Virus record (IMG/VR): IMGVR_UViG_3300033143_002447
Location: 1 to 28,010 of that record
Length of the DNA stretch: 28,010 nucleotides
Origin: a virus
Direction: 5' to 3' (one strand)
This document shows positions 1,227 to 13,751 of this stretch, piece by piece; position 1 is the stretch's first letter, and the number at the start of each line of letters is the position of its first letter. The notes under the pieces are model-generated. The model did no database searches. It was not told where the DNA came from and was given only the letters and a program-made list of their open reading frames with translations. The translations under genes and the position numbers were made by a program.

Positions 1227-1426
1227 AAAAATATAGCCTCGCCTAGTTCGGTAGCTTCTAACACCTCATCGTCGTACCAATAAGATAGTTTCTTATCCAT
1301 AAACCGCAGCTGGTACCCAAAAGCTTCTACACACTCAATGGTTCCAATAGTTCCTAAATATGGATCGTCAAAACGCCAAGAGCTTTTTACTACAATCATT
1401 TTGTCCCCTACTTCAAACCTACTCAT
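1223..1426 (-). CDS. small KOW/SH3-like protein of the left operon
   Basis: 67 aa. It opens MSRFEVGDKMIVVKSSW and continues YLGTIGTIECVEAFGYQLRF, the VGD-x-hydrophobic...G-x-x-G-x-I arrangement typical of small KOW/SH3-like barrels. That is a pattern match, not a proven family. The end, DEVLEATELGEAIFL, is a clear version of the operon tail. The start overlaps the upstream stop by 8 bases and the stop overlaps the next start by 4. Function unknown. Confidence 0.82.
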   Translation of the reverse strand: MSRFEVGDKMIVVKSSWRFDDPYLGTIGTIECVEAFGYQLRFMDKKLSYWYDDEVLEATELGEAIFL

Positions 1427-1838
1427 ACATAGCCTTTGTCATTTCAGTCCTTTCTAATACTTCTTCCAACGTTACCCAAGTGTTTCCGTTACCATGGGCC
1501 AAAAGGACTTCTAAACAACAATTTTCTGCTATCATTGCCTCAGTTAGTCGAAACTTCTGAACTAAACAAGTTCCTAACTCTTTGTGATGGACTATGGAGC
1601 TTATACCGTACTGACATTTTTGTAAGTCGTCTGACAACGTTTTTAGCTTCCTTTTCCTAGAGTCTAACCTACTAACATCTTTTTCTATAATTTTAACTAG
1701 GTCTTCTTTACTCTCACACACACCGTGCGTTATAGAGTCGTACGTATCTATAGGTTCCCAACTCGTAGTATCAGTTGTGATAGTATGACTACTACTTCCG
1801 TAACCTGCAATGCCATGAAGGATCTTGTCATTACTCAT
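1419..1838 (-). CDS. hypothetical protein of the left operon
   Basis: 139 aa, function unknown. The first half is polar and includes a charged, probably helical stretch (KEDLVKIIEKDVSRLDSRKRKL). The second half is more beta-like and ends TLEEVLERTEMTKAMYE, a textbook copy of the operon tail. ATG at 1838 overlaps the upstream stop by 8 bases (TATGAGTAA) and has AGGAG six bases ahead, the best SD in the operon. This member differs most from the barrel-like paralogues, yet keeps the tail. Confidence 0.8.
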   Translation of the reverse strand: MSNDKILHGIAGYGSSSHTITTDTTSWEPIDTYDSITHGVCESKEDLVKIIEKDVSRLDSRKRKLKTLSDDLQKCQYGISSIVHHKELGTCLVQKFRLTEAMIAENCCLEVLLAHGNGNTWVTLEEVLERTEMTKAMYE

Positions 1839-2097
1839 ATAAAACTCCTGTTAAAGCTCCTTTAGGAACTATGGTGAATATATTGTTAAAATTGGAGATC
1901 GGCATACACTGCCCTCCCCCATCTGCAAATGATATCCTAATATGATATTCATCATCCGCACCCTCTAAGGAGTCAATGAATACGTACTTATCAGTTTCTT
2001 TATCATATATACTAAGGATAGCCTCTATTATGGTGTCTTTAACTCTATAAGGATAAGAACTATTATTCTTAATCTTAACGTACACAGTATTACTCAT
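1831..2097 (-). CDS. hypothetical protein of the left operon
   Basis: 88 aa, function unknown. It has alternating hydrophobic strands (NTVYVKIKNNSSYPY, YVFIDSLEGADDEYHIRISF) and ends FTIVPKGALTGVLYE. That ending nearly repeats the end of the membrane-anchored gene at 771-1226, extending similarity beyond the last six residues. Both ends overlap neighbours by 8 bases. The codons for its tail include AGGAGTTTTATATG, an SD and start for the following gene. Confidence 0.8.
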   Translation of the reverse strand: MSNTVYVKIKNNSSYPYRVKDTIIEAILSIYDKETDKYVFIDSLEGADDEYHIRISFADGGGQCMPISNFNNIFTIVPKGALTGVLYE

Positions 2098-2317
2098 ACA
2101 TAGCCTTACTAAGGTCAGTAAGCAATACTACCTCATCAACAGTAGTAATATAATTGTTAAGAGTATAACTTAAGCCATCACACCCTACAGTAAACGTCTC
2201 ATCAAACAATATAGCTACTTCACCATCCTTTGTATGAAACACATGCTCACACACAGTACCTACAGCTCCCTTACAAGTACCTTTAGTTAGTATGACTCTA
2301 TCTCCATAAATAAACAT
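2090..2317 (-). CDS. first gene of the left operon, small KOW/SH3-like protein
   Basis: 75 aa, unknown function. The frame could begin at a GTG at 2323, but that codon overlaps the SD. ATG at 2317 sits five bases after a perfect AGGAGG (2323-2328 on the complement) and is the better start. The protein opens MFIYGDRVILTKGTCKGAVG, with GD-x-V and G-A-V-G-T-V features like its paralogues. It ends DEVVLLTDLSKAMYE, the operon tail. It lies immediately behind the promoter at 2337-2365, so it heads the operon. Confidence 0.85.
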   Translation of the reverse strand: MFIYGDRVILTKGTCKGAVGTVCEHVFHTKDGEVAILFDETFTVGCDGLSYTLNNYITTVDEVVLLTDLSKAMYE

Positions 2318-2336
2318 AAACACCTCCTGACTAACT

Positions 2337-2365
2337 ACTATAGTATACTACAAGTCTATTGTCAA
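2337..2365 (-). promoter_or_regulatory. sigma70-like promoter for the left operon
   Basis: On the - strand a perfect -35 box TTGACA (2365-2360) is followed by a 17-base spacer and TATAGT (2342-2337). The expected start of transcription is near 2330, only a few bases before the AGGAGG of the first operon gene, giving a very short leader. Use by host RNA polymerase in early infection is an inference from consensus match and position. Confidence 0.75.
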
Positions 2366-2498
2366 GGCTTAATATGACTAAAAATACATATCTATGATAT
2401 CAACTAGTTACAAAATAGTTTATTTTTGATAAATTGTCTTAGTAGATACTTTAAGCTAAAAGTACACTAGAGGCCTATTATAGGAAGACTATTATAAT

Positions 2499-2635
2499 AA
2501 GACTACAAAGTATTACGATAGTTACTAGGGTATTGCTATTAAATATTACTACTAAAGTTATTACTTGGGTTATGTAAGCAATAACGTAGTAATATTTATT
2601 ACAGTAAGATTATTACAGTAATAACCTGTAGTCTT
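2499..2635. repeat. TATTAC/GTAATA repeat cluster in the divergent intergenic region
   Basis: The roughly 350 bases between the divergent operons hold no credible gene. Within them TATTAC occurs at 2511, 2544, 2559, 2597 and 2611, and its complement GTAATA at 2589 and 2618. The last pair forms a perfect 7-base palindrome, TTATTAC-A-GTAATAA (2610-2624). The cluster is bracketed by an inverted pair, AAGACTAC (2499-2506) and GTAGTCTT (2628-2635). It could be an operator array, a replication origin or A/T-rich promoter DNA. A TATAGT at about 2637 could be a -10 for the rightward genes, but no good -35 accompanies it. Confidence 0.5.
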
Positions 2636-2671
2636 ACTATAGTACCTAAAACAACGTATTTGAAAGTTAGT

Positions 2672-2872
2672 ATGAAAGATAATAACCTTATCAGGTTCCC
2701 TGACGCTAGGTCTAGGAAACAGAGAGACAAGCTACGTAAGGAAGACTACTCTTATGAACTAGCTCGTAGCAAGCGTGAATCGTGGTTTAAGTTTGTAGGG
2801 GTACTAGCGTTGCTGTCGGCACTGGGGCTGTCCCTAATATACCTAGTATCATTGTTGATTACCCATACATAA
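2672..2872 (+). CDS. small single-pass membrane protein
   Basis: 66 aa from ATG 2672; a TTG at 2660 is an alternative start, and neither has a strong SD. The first 40 residues are highly charged and basic (DARSRKQRDKLRKEDY). A single hydrophobic segment follows at about residues 41-63 (WFKFVGVLALLSALGLSLIY...) with a short polar end. The positive-inside rule would leave the basic part in the cytoplasm. It is the first rightward gene after the divergent region. No family recognised. Confidence 0.7.
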   Translation: MKDNNLIRFPDARSRKQRDKLRKEDYSYELARSKRESWFKFVGVLALLSALGLSLIYLVSLLITHT

Positions 2873-2884
2873 GAATGGAGAGCT

Positions 2885-3163
2885 ATGAAGAGACATACGT
2901 TTAAGGCTGGAGAATTTGCATACTTCTCTACAAAAGGAGAAATTGTGAGGATTATAGGAAGTTCTGACAAAAAGGGACTTCTAGGCACAAAACAGGTTCT
3001 TAGGGTAATGAGCTTAAAAGATATAGACCCAGCTACTGGAAAGCCCTCTAGATACATAGACTGTCCTATTGCTGATGTAATGCCTATTACCGACGACGAC
3101 GTACAGCTTATGTTTAAGATGCTCTATCTTACTGAGGAGTTTACCCTCCTAAGGTACCTTTAG
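2885..3163 (+). CDS. hypothetical protein
   Basis: 92 aa; ATG follows GGAG with a four-base spacer. It opens MKRHTFKAGEFAYFSTKGEIVRIIG, echoing the G-[DE]-x-V openings of the left-operon proteins. The middle contains a likely turn (DIDPATGKPSRYIDCP). The C-terminus is hydrophobic and aromatic (KMLYLTEEFTLLRYL). Function unknown. A non-coding stretch with hairpins follows directly. Confidence 0.75.
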   Translation: MKRHTFKAGEFAYFSTKGEIVRIIGSSDKKGLLGTKQVLRVMSLKDIDPATGKPSRYIDCPIADVMPITDDDVQLMFKMLYLTEEFTLLRYL

Positions 3164-6842: not shown

Positions 6843-7180
6843 TGGCAGGTACTACGCCTAGAGGCATTACTAAAAAACAGATAGAGACTATGTACAACCC
6901 AGGCTCCCAAAACGGAGTTAAAACTGCTACTAAGATTTTGGACGGTTCTACCTTAGTAGAAATAATCAAGTTTGGAGACGTTGTAGCCAAACTTACTGTA
7001 CAGTCTACAGATAGTTTAGTGTGTGACGTGACAGTCTCAATTAATGGTACTGATTTCATCACCGCCTTAACAGGAGTAGATAATTCTGCACTACAAAGTT
7101 ACGAACTCCACAACGTAACTACTATCAAAGTTACTAGAACGGCAGGAACAGGAAGATTACATATATCAGGAACTCTATAA
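6842..7180 (+). CDS. beta-rich hypothetical protein after terminase
   Basis: 112 aa. A short polar N-terminus with GITKKQIETMYNPGSQNGVK is followed by a beta-sandwich-like run (VVAKLTVQSTDSLVCDVTVSINGTDF, then TTIKVTRTAGTGRLHISGTL). The style fits a virion or decoration protein, and it overlaps both neighbours by one base in TAATG junctions. No family recognised. Confidence 0.75.
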   Translation: MAGTTPRGITKKQIETMYNPGSQNGVKTATKILDGSTLVEIIKFGDVVAKLTVQSTDSLVCDVTVSINGTDFITALTGVDNSALQSYELHNVTTIKVTRTAGTGRLHISGTL

Positions 7181-7416
7181 TGGAATCCCCAGTAATAATA
7201 AGAAGAAATAGACTGTTTAAGATAGACGAAACAGTTTTACCAGAAGCAGCAAATACCAATCCTATAAAAGGAGCTTTGTACGCAGCTATTTATACAGAGT
7301 TTAAAGGAAGTGCTTTTTCTGATAAATATAAAACATTGACAGCAGACCAAAGAATGCAATCTATAAATGACTACGCATGGGCGTGGCTAAACACAAGAGG
7401 TTATACTAATGGCTAA
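7180..7416 (+). CDS. small hypothetical protein
   Basis: 78 aa, MESPVIIRRNRLFKIDETVLPEAANTNP..., with a helical, aromatic C-terminal half (SINDYAWAWLNTRGYTNG). It lies in the string of overlapping small genes between terminase and portal: one-base overlap upstream, eight-base overlap downstream. Function unknown. Confidence 0.7.
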   Translation: MESPVIIRRNRLFKIDETVLPEAANTNPIKGALYAAIYTEFKGSAFSDKYKTLTADQRMQSINDYAWAWLNTRGYTNG

Positions 7417-7618
7417 AAAAGCAACTAAAAAACCTACCAAACCAAAAGCAAAAGACGTAAAAACTGGCGCACTAGGACTGGGAGATGCTTACGCATACGC
7501 AGTAGAAGGACTTACGGAAGATCAAAGCGAAAGCCAAGAAGCATGGTTAGGAGTTTCAAAGAAAACTTTGGACCCAAAAGCTTACGTTGGCGGAGATAAG
7601 CTAAATGTCAAAAAGTAA
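7409..7618 (+). CDS. small lysine-rich hypothetical protein
   Basis: 69 aa. The N-terminal 20 residues are basic and low-complexity (MAKKATKKPTKPKAKDVKTG), reminiscent of the Lys/Ala/Thr-rich tail of the zinc-ribbon protein at 4427. The rest is neutral (GLGDAYAYAVEGLTEDQSES...). It overlaps the previous gene by 8 bases and the next by 14. Function unknown. Confidence 0.65.
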   Translation: MAKKATKKPTKPKAKDVKTGALGLGDAYAYAVEGLTEDQSESQEAWLGVSKKTLDPKAYVGGDKLNVKK

Positions 7619-7829
7619 GATGTACAAACCAAAAGGAAGTTCTAACATACCTAATGCACCTAGATACGATCCTGATACAGGAGAGGCAGTAGAGGTAAAT
7701 AAAAGAGCAGCTCTTAGACAATGGTTTAAGGATGCTAAGGTAGATAAGATAGCAGAAGATGAAAGTTACTCAGTTTCGATAGACCCTAAACAAGCAGTTT
7801 ATGCTAGAAAACAAAAAAAGGAAAAATAA
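7605..7829 (+). CDS. small hypothetical protein
   Basis: 74 aa, MSKSKMYKPKGSSNIPNAPRYD..., polar and basic with no clear domain. The middle has a probable short helix (NKRAALRQWFKDAKVDKIAEDE). It starts 14 bases inside the preceding gene and ends one base before the next start codon. Function unknown; likely a packaging or head-associated minor protein by location. Confidence 0.65.
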   Translation: MSKSKMYKPKGSSNIPNAPRYDPDTGEAVEVNKRAALRQWFKDAKVDKIAEDESYSVSIDPKQAVYARKQKKEK

Positions 7830-7830
7830 A

Positions 7831-8121
7831 ATGTCAGATATCAAACAAGGCGAGTCAATTTCTATTGACCACACAGAAGCAGTAAGATCAGCACCTAGTA
7901 CCAAAGGTAAGTCAACAGCAGCTAAAGGAAAGTCCTGTGATAAAGCTACAGAAGAGAAAGCTTCAGCAGCTCCTAGCACTAAAGGACAGAAGAATATGTA
8001 CGGAGGCCCTTACAGAGCTGACCACCCTTCTACTGATCCAGCATCAATGACAACTCCATTCGACTCCAGTAAGTCTGAATTGGACGGACACTCTTTAAAG
8101 AAGCCTACACAACGTAAGTAA
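7831..8121 (+). CDS. low-complexity hypothetical protein
   Basis: 96 aa from ATG 7831, preceded by AAAAGG nine bases away. An in-frame ATG at 7801 lies inside the previous gene and lacks an SD. The sequence is Ser/Lys/Ala-rich and contains an imperfect internal repeat (SAPSTKGKSTAAKG and AAPSTKGQKNMYGG). It looks disordered. Before the homing-endonuclease remnant arrived it was probably directly followed by the portal gene. Function unknown. Confidence 0.7.
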   Translation: MSDIKQGESISIDHTEAVRSAPSTKGKSTAAKGKSCDKATEEKASAAPSTKGQKNMYGGPYRADHPSTDPASMTTPFDSSKSELDGHSLKKPTQRK

Positions 8122-8200
8122 TAAGTCGGTTTTGTTAATCTCTAATAAACGTTTAACTAGTTTGAAGGTAGAGCCTTTAACCGTAAATCCAGAGGGAATT

Positions 8201-8515
8201 ATGTTTAGTAAAATAGATACAGAAGAGAAAGCTTATTGGTTAGGATTTTTAGCAGCTGATGGATGTATTACAGTTCACAAGAACGGTTGTAAATATATTA
8301 AAATAGCTTTAGCTAAAAAAGACATAAAACCTTCCAAACTAAGTGCGGTATCTTCTATATTTTTATTTAGAAAAGATACTAGAACTGCTAAAAAAATTAT
8401 AAAGTATTTGTACGAAGGTTCTACTATTTATTTAGATAGAAAGTACGAAAAAGCTTTATTAGGAATGGCTTGGAAAAGTAAGCACAAAGAAAAGGAGGTG
8501 AACCGTCAGTTTTAA
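8201..8515 (+). CDS. LAGLIDADG homing endonuclease remnant
   Basis: The ORF encodes 104 aa from ATG 8201 (GAGGG four bases ahead); a TTG at 8132 could extend it to 127. EEKAYWLGFLAADGCI is a clear LAGLIDADG-type motif. Later IKYLYEGSTIYLDRKYEKAL resembles the C-terminal part of phage and bacterial homing endonucleases with this N-terminus. Those enzymes normally have well over 100 residues and a second motif between the two blocks; here the two are joined at about KKDIKPSKLSAVSS, so most of the centre, including the second catalytic helix, is missing. It is probably inactive. The 79 bases before it (8122-8200) show nothing recognisable. Confidence 0.75.
   Translation: MFSKIDTEEKAYWLGFLAADGCITVHKNGCKYIKIALAKKDIKPSKLSAVSSIFLFRKDTRTAKKIIKYLYEGSTIYLDRKYEKALLGMAWKSKHKEKEVNRQF
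8492..8501 (+). promoter_or_regulatory. full-length Shine-Dalgarno for the portal gene
   Basis: AAGGAGGTGA matches the complement of the 16S rRNA 3' end over ten bases. It lies inside the last codons of the homing-endonuclease remnant. Six bases separate its GGAGG from the codon GTC at 8505, the first position in the portal frame where initiation would be optimally spaced. No ATG, GTG or TTG in the portal frame occurs nearby. Confidence 0.7.
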
Positions 8516-10394
8516 TTTAGGAGTTTCTAACCACCCGTTAAGTAGGTTAGGCGGACTTAGTTCCATCGGCATATATCTATACGAAGACGTTTATTACAGA
8601 CAGTGGATAAGTGAAATAGCTTTAGCATTTTACGAAGGTAGACAAGATGAGTTCGTTTGGTTGGATTTAGTTAGACAATTCCGAAATCCCGAAAAACAAC
8701 AAATCCTTCCTATCAATATCACAAAAGAGATTATTGATGAGATTTCTTTATTATATCGTGAAGATCCTATCTATCAGGTAGTAGACGATAATGGTAAAGT
8801 ATTGCCTAAAGACCAAAAACTCTGGGAAGAGTTGATGAAAGATTCCAGGTATCTATCTTTTATGGATAAGTTAGATAGGTGGACTCGTTTGTTAGGTACA
8901 GTATTGGTAAAAGTAAGTTTCGTAGATCCGAAGACTGGGTCATTAGTGAAAGAAACTGAAGGCGGCAAAGTACAGTTAGACATGATGCACGGAGGAGTGT
9001 ATGATATTAAGACTGGTGCGTCTCCTTATTATATTACAGAACTTATGATAGGTTTCGGTAAAGGGTTTAAGGGATTTAATAATTCTACTAACCCTAATCC
9101 AGGACACTTAACTGGCCAAGACGTACTATCCCAAACTATTAACTTGACTAACCCTTCTAAGTTAGGTCCAGTAAACGAAATTTATTGGAGTTTGGACGAC
9201 CATAAAATAACTGATAATGAGAACAGAGAATACTCCACTAAAAATCCTTACGGAGTTATTCCAGCAGTACCTTTCTTTAATCAAGATCCAGCGCACTATT
9301 ATTTCTTGCCTATTGACGAGCCTTTAATATACGCCAATCATGCATTGAATATGAGAATGACTGACCTTAACCATATAGCAAAGTTTCAATCTTTTGGTAT
9401 ACCTGTGATCAAAGGAGTAGAAAGACCTACTTCAACTAGACAAGGCAGACCGACAGACGACTTTAATATATTACGAGGAGGTAGCGCCCAAAACTCTTTT
9501 GGAGGTTTGAGCGGAGTTAGTGGTCATGGAGCAGGAGGAAGTTTCCGTTCTTTTGACGCAGGACTAGGAGTTAATAGAGATGGCAACGCAGACGCCAACG
9601 CTCTGGGAATGTCTCTAGGTCCAGACACGGCTGTAGCTGTCGGAGAAAAAGGCGACTTTAAGTTTGCCCACCCTCAAGCAGACATTACAGGACTGTTAAA
9701 GACTATCGAATCTGTCACCGACATGGTCAGGATAAATCATGGACTTAAACCAAAGTTCAGTAATACTTTACCTGATTCCGGCTTCGGACAAATGATAGAG
9801 AAGATGGGAGTTATCGAAGATAACGTTAGACGTGGAAAGCTATTTAATGAGAGAGAACAACAACTATTCTCAGTAATCAAAGCTTTGTGGAACTCACATA
9901 ACGAAAAGTCAGGCGCTAAAAAGTTCTCTGAAAACGCTTCCTTAAAAATATTCTATAAAACTCCTGAATTTCCAACTGACCCAAAAACTCAGATGGAGAC
10001 TATTATAATGGAGCAGAATATACTTCATTCTGGAGATAAGATAGCTTATAAGAAACTTTACCCTCACCTAAGCGATAAGGAAATAGTCAAACTAGTTACA
10101 GAAGTTCGTAAGAATAAGCTGGAACAAGCTAAATCAGACGCTGAATTAGAGGTTGAGCGAGCTAAAATACTACAAGAAGCTGGAATTCTACAAGCAGACT
10201 CGTCTGCTTCTTTGGCTAGCGGATCTACTAGATTAGACATAAGCTCTGACATTACGTTAGGACAACTGGCTGGAGAAGCTGGAGATATGCCTAATCCTAA
10301 GATAGATAACAAGGCTAAACACGCAGAAGACTCAGGAAAACAAGGAAGCGATTCCAGAAAAACTGACAAATCTAGTAAACCAAAAAAGAAGTGA
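8505..10394 (+). CDS. portal protein, without a standard start codon
   Basis: The portal forms the ring through which DNA enters the capsid. The frame is open from the TGA at 8499-8501. Its first ATG/GTG/TTG is TTG 8661, yet clearly protein-like sequence precedes it (SFNLGVSNHPLSRLGGLSS, then YYRQWISEIALAFYEGRQDE). I place the start at GTC 8505 (about 629 aa) because a full SD sits six bases upstream; starting at 8661 would remove 52 residues. Portal traits are length, place between terminase and scaffold, the segment LPIDEPLIYANHALN, and a helical C-terminal part with a Lys-rich acidic tail. GTC differs by one base from GTG. Confidence 0.88.
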   Translation, partial: VSFNLGVSNHPLSRLGGLSSIGIYLYEDVYYRQWISEIALAFYEGRQDEFVWLDLVRQFRNPEKQQILPINITKEIIDEISLLYREDPIYQVVDDNGKVLPKDQKLWEELMKDSRYLSFMDKLDRWTRLLGTVLVKVSFVDPKTGSLVKETEGGKVQLDMMHGGVYDIKTGASPYYITELMIGFGKGFKGFNNSTNPNPGHLTGQDVLSQTINLTNPSKLGPVNEIYWSLDDHKITDNENREYSTKNPYGVIPAVPFFNQDPAHYYFLPIDEPLIYANHALNMRMTDLNHIAKFQSFGIPVIKGVERPTSTRQGRPTDDFNILRGGSAQNSFGGLSGVSGHGAGGSFRSFDAGLGVNRDGNADANALGMSLGPDTAVAVGEKGDFKFAHPQADITGLLKTIESVTDMVRINHGLKPKFSNTLPDSGFGQMIEKMGVIEDNVRRGKLFNEREQQLFSVIKALWNSHNEKSGAKKFSENASLKIFYKTPEFPTDPKTQMETIIMEQNILHSGDKIAYKKLYPHLSDKEIVKLVTEVRKNKLEQAKSDAELEVERAKILQEAGILQADSSASLASGSTRLDISSDITLGQLAGEAGDMPNPKIDNKAKHAEDSGKQGSDSRKTDKSSKPKKK

Positions 10395-10759: not shown

Positions 10760-10780
10760 CAACTGGTAGAGCCAGTGAGG
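10760..10780 (+). repeat. hairpin leader, copy 1 (before scaffold)
   Basis: ACTGG (10762-10766) and CCAGT (10772-10776) form a five-pair stem with loop TAGAG, directly followed by GAGGAG. The 21-base unit recurs at 13085-13105 with one difference, in the loop, at the same place relative to the next gene. It may be an RNA-binding site or translation-control leader. Confidence 0.7.
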
Positions 10781-10790
10781 AGAACGAGGA

Positions 10791-11660
10791 ATGAACGACG
10801 ACTTAATTAACCAATTGGGAAATAAACCAGCTCCAGATGGTGCGACAAGTACCCAGAACACTACGCAGGTAGAGCCTGCAAAGAGTGCTGAAGAGCCTAC
10901 TCCTGCTGCCACGGATAGTACGGCTAGTGGTGATACTGGTGCAGAAGTTGACAAAACTACTGTAAAAGATCCCGAAGATTGGTCAAAAGAGAGCGCTTTG
11001 AAAGAGGTTATTAAACTTCGAGAAGAGCAAAAGATCCAACGACTTAAATATACTGAAAAGTTAGACAAGTTCAAAGAGGAGATTGCAGCAACGCAAGAAC
11101 CTTTAAAAGAAGAGCTAGCAGAACTTAAGAAGTATAAAGAGGAGCTGGGTAAGATCAAAGCAGCTGAGGAAGACAAGAAGAGAACTCTGGAAGACAAAGT
11201 GTCTCACAGAGAAACTCGTATTGGTGAATTAGAAGCTAGGGTCGAAGCGATGTCCGCTGACAGAGACACTGAGTCTCAAAGTTTCAAAGAGCGTTTATCT
11301 GTGTATGAAGCACAGGAAGAAGCTCGAAAACAATTGTATATGGATAAGCTTAAAGTAGAACTTGACGCTATTCCAGAAAAATTCAGGGAACAAGCAGAAT
11401 TGATTTCAAAAGGCGCAGGAGATCCTAGCGAAGCTTTAGTAGCAATTAGCGAAGCTCGTCTAAAAGGGTTCTTTGAGGACAAAACGGTTATTGTTAACCA
11501 CGCAGTCCCAGGAGCCGCTGATGGAGCGAGAGCAACTAAAGAACAACTAGAAGGAGCAGCAAGAGCTGGTAGAGACAGTATGTCCTCTACTGACAAGGTT
11601 CGAGAAGCTCTTAAAGAGATCCGCCAAGGCGAAGGAAACTCTGCATTTAGAACCCGTTAA
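10791..11660 (+). CDS. capsid scaffolding protein
   Basis: 289 aa, acidic and highly charged, directly upstream of the major capsid gene, the classic scaffold position. Residues 1-60 are Pro/Ala/Thr/Ser/Glu-rich and disordered. Residues about 65-205 form a long coiled coil (for example KEELAELKKYKEELGKIKAA). The last part contains a probable helix-rich capsid-binding end (STDKVREALKEIRQ). Scaffolds guide capsid shell assembly and then leave or are degraded. No protease domain is visible here. The gene is preceded by the repeated hairpin leader. Confidence 0.85.
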   Translation: MNDDLINQLGNKPAPDGATSTQNTTQVEPAKSAEEPTPAATDSTASGDTGAEVDKTTVKDPEDWSKESALKEVIKLREEQKIQRLKYTEKLDKFKEEIAATQEPLKEELAELKKYKEELGKIKAAEEDKKRTLEDKVSHRETRIGELEARVEAMSADRDTESQSFKERLSVYEAQEEARKQLYMDKLKVELDAIPEKFREQAELISKGAGDPSEALVAISEARLKGFFEDKTVIVNHAVPGAADGARATKEQLEGAARAGRDSMSSTDKVREALKEIRQGEGNSAFRTR

Positions 11661-13084: not shown

Positions 13085-13105
13085 CAACTGGTCGAGCCAG
13101 TGAGG
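13085..13105 (+). repeat. hairpin leader, copy 2 (after capsid)
   Basis: ACTGG (13087-13091) and CCAGT (13097-13101) flank loop TCGAG and are followed by GAGGGAG and the ATG at 13113. The unit differs from the copy at 10760-10780 by one loop base, and both lie behind a TAACC. The loop difference leaves the stem intact, consistent with selection on the hairpin. Confidence 0.7.
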
Positions 13106-13112
13106 GAGAATA

Positions 13113-13751
13113 ATGTCATACTATACAACAAAATCAAGTACAGTGAACAAAGAATACGTAGTTATTAAGCACGGAATCCCTAATGTAAACTCTGTAGTAA
13201 TGGGAGTTAGGTTTAGAGGAGGCTGGGCAGTCGTAGACAAAGGTAGTAAAATTTACCACAATCTTACGAAATTACCAATGTTAAAGAACCCTAGGGAGAT
13301 GCCTTTATCATTTTTAAAACAACTACCATTTATTACTAGAGCAATGGACGTAAAACTTATTTACGGCGCCGACGTATTTGCAAAATACGTAACACTGAGC
13401 GATAAGATAGAAGTAGAAGAAGAAGCCGCCAAAGTAACCAAAGCTGAAAAAATGCATATAGAGAATAAGTCTATTTGCTGTCACAGACTAAGCAACGGCA
13501 TGTTATGTAAAGTTAACGTAGCAGACGAAAAAGTATCTTCATACTGCTCACACCACATATTAGAAGACCCTAGATTAGAAGAATTAGGTTTCAAAGTACC
13601 TAAAGCAATGTTACCTAAACAACGAAAGAAGTTAAGGAAATCAGCTTTTAATGAAATTAGGAAGTCTTTAAATAAGAGGAACAAGAAAAATGATAAAGTG
13701 GTGGAAACAGAGACAACAATCGAAGACGTTATCAATAAAAAAGAAGCTTAG
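13113..13751 (+). CDS. zinc-finger-like hypothetical protein
   Basis: 212 aa. Residues 1-95 look like a folded domain (VVIKHGIPNVNSVVMGVRFRG...). An acidic linker follows, then a Cys/His cluster at about 123-150 with the spacing C...G-x-x-C...Y-C-x-H-H (HRLSNGMLCKV, SSYCSHHI), a small zinc-finger pattern found in various phage proteins. The last 50 residues are very basic (KQRKKLRKSAFNEIRKSLNKR). A structural or nucleic-acid-binding role is possible; I cannot name one. The gene lies behind the second hairpin leader and overlaps the next by 62 bases. Confidence 0.75.
   Translation: MSYYTTKSSTVNKEYVVIKHGIPNVNSVVMGVRFRGGWAVVDKGSKIYHNLTKLPMLKNPREMPLSFLKQLPFITRAMDVKLIYGADVFAKYVTLSDKIEVEEEAAKVTKAEKMHIENKSICCHRLSNGMLCKVNVADEKVSSYCSHHILEDPRLEELGFKVPKAMLPKQRKKLRKSAFNEIRKSLNKRNKKNDKVVETETTIEDVINKKEA

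Follow-up and report, generated by a model that had tools for sequence, protein, structure and literature searches.

A putative GUC start behind an extended Shine-Dalgarno sequence in a phage portal gene, and recurrent weak portal starts among its relatives

In the DNA of an uncultivated phage analyzed here (the window, 28,010 nucleotides), the portal gene is probably translated from a GUC codon at position 8505 with the help of an extended Shine-Dalgarno (SD) sequence, following the insertion and decay of a homing endonuclease gene (HEG), and represents one example among recurrent weak starts specific to the portal, which plausibly limit portal dosage. GTC is almost never used as a start codon, and AUU- or GUC-type starts have been described for a handful of bacterial genes and are ignored by gene finders. 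Among the phages compared, one essential gene repeatedly carries non-canonical starts with SDs of matching strength, and the capsid gene does not. If this reading is true, start-codon choice is a visible control of virion stoichiometry, the phages provide a natural series for studying the rescue of weak start codons by SD strength, and the portal genes of this group would be systematically mis-annotated or truncated in databases.

Table 1. Features of the portal start region in the window.
Feature	Position	Strand	Remarks
Portal-leader hairpin 1, TTGAAGG-UAGAG-CCTTTAA	8162..8180	+	Conserved; about 20 of 48 relatives have this hairpin, with loop NAGAG, ahead of the portal
Leader hairpin 2 (probable), UCC-AGAG-GGA	8188..8197	+	Short and weak alone; position fits the second hairpin in L008, L015, L031, L037 and L035
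LAGLIDADG homing endonuclease remnant	8201..8515	+	ORF of 104 aa from ATG 8201; PHROG endonuclease match
Extended Shine-Dalgarno AAAGGAGGTGAACC	8491..8504	+	Part of the 3'-terminal HEG remnant sequence; ranks first among 48 portal starts
GTC, proposed portal start codon	8505..8507	+	Aligned codon ATG, GTG, TTG or ATT in relatives; GTC also in L001 and L005
Portal protein gene	8505..10394	+	629 aa; Foldseek matches all portals; between terminase and major head protein
TTG, first canonical in-frame portal start	8661..8663	+	Rejected; would cost 52 residues under purifying selection

The portal gene and its proposed start

By predicted fold and gene position, the product of 8505-10394 is a portal protein. 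A Foldseek search with the predicted model (pLDDT 53, low confidence) returned 45 matches at E<=0.001, every one of them a portal or connector entry, and the gene sits between terminase (phrog_2) and the major head protein (phrog_212). Pfam and PHROGs searches gave no match for the portal protein itself. Likewise, tblastn against named phage records found none, so no annotated isolate is available for comparison, and neither hosts nor prophages turned up when prokaryote genomes were scanned. One relative, L005, carries at 1401-3139 a near-identical copy of the window portal that lacks codons 86-132 and changes frame; faulty assembly or a defective variant could account for this.

The portal frame is closed upstream by a TGA (8499-8501). 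The sequence reads TGA ACC GTC, placing GTC two codons after the stop, and the first in-frame ATG, GTG or TTG is the TTG at 8661, 52 codons inside the conserved protein; the lack of a standard start at the N-terminus, first noted in a preliminary description of this DNA, is thereby confirmed. Over codons 2-44 the window and its relative L002 differ at 2, 2 and 15 sites in the three codon positions (dN/dS ~0.04), with similar values in other relatives that align without gaps. As judged from these substitutions, codons 2-44 are clearly protein-coding and under strong purifying selection. Many columns of the first 52 codons are invariant in 27 relatives, for example F3, N4, L5, G6, Y24, L25, Y26, Y31, R32 and W34.

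Directly upstream of GTC, 13 of the 14 bases of AAAGGAGGTGAACC (8491-8504) are complementary to the 3' tail of 16S rRNA, including 11 contiguous bases in AAAGGAGGTGA (8491-8501), and the GGAGG core ends 6 nt before the codon. The preliminary description had seen a ten-base SD six bases ahead of GTC 8505, and the calculated duplex bears this out: its energy is -19.5 kcal/mol against -11.6 kcal/mol for the next of 33 window starts (canonical anti-SD assumed), which puts the portal SD far beyond background. With no canonical start before the conserved coding sequence and an extended SD at proper spacing, the region has the features of the non-canonical-start class. Translation from GTC is predicted to yield the N-terminal peptide (M)SFNLGVSNHPLSR, beginning (M)SFNLG.

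The closest parallel with experimental proof is Streptomyces sigR, which starts at GTC behind AGGAGGTG and is repressed by IF3 (PMC5472188). Both genes place GTC directly behind an extended SD, and in both finders of canonical starts misplace the start. However, sigR encodes a bacterial sigma factor, whereas the gene in the window is a phage structural gene known from sequence, whose relatives vary between ATG, GTG, TTG and ATT. In Staphylococcus aureus the AUU and AUA starts, among them cvfC1 (AUU), ccpN and infC (AUA), all come with extended SD motifs and reach roughly 10% of AUG expression; these genes are cellular rather than viral and were studied by ribosome profiling (PMC13009471). For the AUU starts of Escherichia coli infC and pcnB, the accepted model is initiation at AUU with reduced, IF3-sensitive translation; those are single bacterial genes, whereas here AUU occurs in one phage gene across about a dozen lineages. 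Among phages, ORF35 of Ralstonia phage RsoM1USA carries an annotated GTC start, apparently by annotation alone, no comparative or functional support having been found (PMC6389784). The literature searched, with most subscription journals outside its reach, yielded no report of a non-canonical start of a phage portal.

Start codons across related phages

Two IMG/VR scans returned 58 and then 72 loci, largely on the same contigs, and removal of duplicates left 48 distinct start regions. The tally covers 47 distinct relatives, leaving out the distant portal of L114 whose aligned codon, around 2998, reads GGA. In alignment with 8505, 21 of them have ATG, 13 ATT, nine GTG, three TTG and one GTC. 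No canonical in-frame start lies between the upstream stop and this codon in 12 of the 13 relatives with ATT and in the one with GTC; the exception, L029, has TTG codons 12-14 codons upstream, beyond its SD. Changes between canonical and non-canonical portal starts number at least ten on the tree. As read from these alignments and from the other genes checked, the weak portal start is a recurrent, portal-specific trait of the family, which goes beyond what the preliminary description had envisaged.

The ATT codon lies 70-97 nt after the previous gene in L002, L016, L018 and L055 and 170 nt after it in L007, leaving no room for a catalytic intron. A comparison with relatives that lack the endonuclease had been proposed as a check on the start. 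ATT still occurs at the same codon in such relatives, 70-170 nt past the previous stop, so splicing and frameshifting are disfavored as a general solution. Most of the ATT relatives free of an endonuclease combine a leader this short with the lack of any canonical in-frame start ahead of the codon.

The GTC of the window reads GTCAGT where the near relative L004 reads GTGAGT, and therefore probably arose from GTG by a single third-position change. Group I introns lie at several different positions after about portal codons 36-64 in L002, L020, L029, L037 and L047, marking an intron hot spot. Identity between the window and L002 is 83% over codons 1-64 and about 91-93% over the following 600 nt, and later parts of the gene also fall to 83%. 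The higher divergence of codons 1-64 is a hint of gene conversion close to the intron site of L002, and ATT might have spread by co-conversion with an intron or HEG; however, the later parts of the gene at 83% weaken this hint, and the start codon does not follow the presence of an intron. In addition, L009, L016, L067 and L115 share AAAGG(T/C)AGGGTA-N3-AT just before ATTTCTTTT, upstream of the portal, three of them without an endonuclease; horizontal spread of a start cassette is possible.

The endonuclease remnant and other readings of the start

The ORF ahead of the portal had been described as an endonuclease remnant, and database comparison agrees. It matches phrog_4645 (2e-17), and its intact relative in L009 matches LAGLIDADG_3. 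Aligned by tblastn to the intact enzymes of L009 and L031, it covers only their residues ~10-51 and ~160-226, that is, the two ends; the middle portion with the second LAGLIDADG motif is deleted, and the two motifs of an active enzyme are thus not both present. It ends in TAA 8513-8515, so that it shares 11 nt with the beginning of the portal gene.

The leader ahead of this ORF resembles that of HEG-free portal genes. HEG-free relatives carry a hairpin with an NAGAG loop, often two, 36-50 nt before the portal start, and this hairpin stands 32-36 nt before the endonuclease ATG in the window, L009 and L031, which indicates that the endonuclease occupies the portal start position and uses its leader. 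Covariation supports hairpin 1: 96.6% of cells are paired and 41 double changes stand against 10 expected in shuffles, the rows having been picked for at least four inner pairs and the outer three pairs having played no part in this choice. In six lineages an HEG or its remnant adjoins the portal start, and no ATG portal is among them (Fisher p=0.03, with one of the six, L007, recognized by eye). We propose that a LAGLIDADG homing endonuclease invaded the portal start, acquiring the portal's leader and ATG position, that it decayed to a 104-codon remnant, and that the 3' end of this remnant now supplies the portal SD. Free-standing HEGs of T4 similarly lie between conserved phage genes and some overlap their neighbors, but these are GIY-YIG or HNH enzymes (PMC2988022), whereas here a LAGLIDADG enzyme sits exactly at the portal start and uses its leader.

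According to our proposal, ribosomes would begin the portal at GUC 8505 with ordinary fMet initiation, enabled by the unusually long SD (8491-8504). Initiation at GUC is expected to be very weak, which counts against a direct reading of this codon. Since the remnant stop overlaps the portal start, termination-reinitiation may help. GUC might be used only in this way, with ribosomes on the HEG remnant stopping at TAA 8513-8515, slipping back by a few bases to the SD and restarting, and with the remnant ORF kept open for this purpose. The 11-nt overlap, a frame still open across the internal deletion and the overlapping and coupled HEG genes of T4 (PMC2988022) are consistent with such coupling. 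We nevertheless consider strict dependence on it unlikely, as no upstream ORF overlaps the ATT start of HEG-free relatives, the portal SD is very strong by itself and the open remnant is seen in only one lineage.

The preliminary description had offered GTC initiation, a frameshift, splicing or a sequence error as the options. Comparison favors the first, and the other three lose ground to the ATT starts of relatives, the three assemblies with GTC and the failure to detect an intron at the window site. A +1 frameshift at CAG-TTT-TAA (8507-8515) would fuse the remnant to the portal from F3 on, and slippage at the stop-adjacent TTT-TAA would indeed join the frames and keep F3 N4 L5 G6. Frameshifting of the prfB type has an SD ~3 nt upstream of the slippery codon before the stop. 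Here about a dozen nt separate the SD core from the site, the fusion would put ~104 extra residues on a conserved N-terminus, and ATT relatives lack an HEG and carry in-frame stops shortly before the codon; such a frameshift is very improbable.

Splicing of a HEG-bearing RNA intron, joining ATG 8201 to the portal, would account for the HEG ATG lying exactly at the portal start position, and group I introns do occur inside the portal genes of the five relatives listed above. However, a scan for group I and II catalytic cores found no match to any intron family at the window portal start (7000-9200), even at E<=10, and the same scan finds the introns in the relatives' portals, where true introns score 76-92 bits; none was found around the L009 or L031 endonucleases. 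Only 79 nt lie outside the HEG ORF, partly taken by leader hairpins, and the 70-170 nt leaders of ATT relatives are too short. We therefore give splicing hardly any credence. An Rfam match to GP20-b at 7385-7436 fell far below threshold and away from the portal, and was rejected.

A sequence error is equally hard to credit: GTC is one base from GTG, the codon of L004, but it is identical in three assemblies, the window, L001 (3300033153) and L005 (3300033141), making an error unlikely, and non-canonical codons recur in 13 other lineages. Translation from TTG 8661, the first canonical in-frame start, can practically be dismissed, as it would forfeit 52 codons that purifying selection preserves and that include many invariant residues, and ATG relatives start at the codon aligned to 8505.

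SD strength, portal specificity and possible dosage control

Weaker portal start codons usually come with stronger SDs, which, together with their recurrence in this gene and not in the others checked, suggests deliberate throttling of portal output. Mean SD energies are -7.3 kcal/mol for ATG, -9.3 for GTG/TTG and -12.2 for ATT/GTC (Mann-Whitney p=3e-4, kinship ignored), with related phages taken as partly independent in these SD-codon statistics. Nine sister contrasts hand-picked from the tree go in the expected direction in eight cases (Wilcoxon p=0.02), and an automatic independent-pairs test on the tree gave four for and none against, not significant alone. Against the trend, the SD of L009 (ATT) is weaker than that of its ATG sister L014.

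Within the genes and genomes checked, the weak start is specific to the portal. ATG begins the major capsid protein gene in 43 of 43 cases, as compared with non-canonical starts in 14 of 47 portals (Fisher p=5e-5), and the neighboring genes checked in relatives offered no case comparable to the portal. When two ATT-portal contigs (105 and 112 kb) were scanned for a strong SD with a non-canonical codon and an open frame, the portal was the only clear gene. No tRNAs were found in these two contigs or in the window, and no phage-encoded IF3 in the records of nine relatives, which may be incomplete; from the two contigs and nine records it follows that host factors must do the initiating.

Weak portal starts, mostly AUU, with compensating SDs thus recur, and the GTC of the window would be one instance. 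The portal is present in 12 copies per virion. Based on this stoichiometry and on the contrast with the capsid gene, we infer that the purpose may be to hold portal synthesis down compared with that of the capsid protein, with discrimination presumably by IF3, as at Streptomyces sigR. The strong SDs of weak codons could also be mere compensation, without selected throttling. We therefore put forward only tentatively that dosage control by the portal start codon has evolved in this phage family, where AUG was swapped repeatedly for AUU, GUG, UUG or GUC and the SD was tuned, keeping portal low against capsid and responsive to host IF3 or ribosome state, with HEG invasion as one route.

The portal leader may hold a further layer of regulation, as its hairpin is possibly a protein-binding translational operator. 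In the 105 kb contig of L009 it is the only hairpin of its kind (stem of at least 6) just upstream of an ORF, and the Rfam scans run gave no family match for it. An invariant AGAG within a five-base loop is seen in the leader hairpins of the window, L009, L031, L015, L016, L025, L037 and L067. Elsewhere in the window, ACTGG-UAGAG-CCAGT (10762-10776) lies just upstream of the gene at 10791 and ACTGG-UCGAG-CCAGT (13087-13101) just upstream of the gene at 13113, which suggests an element common to a small set of structural genes.
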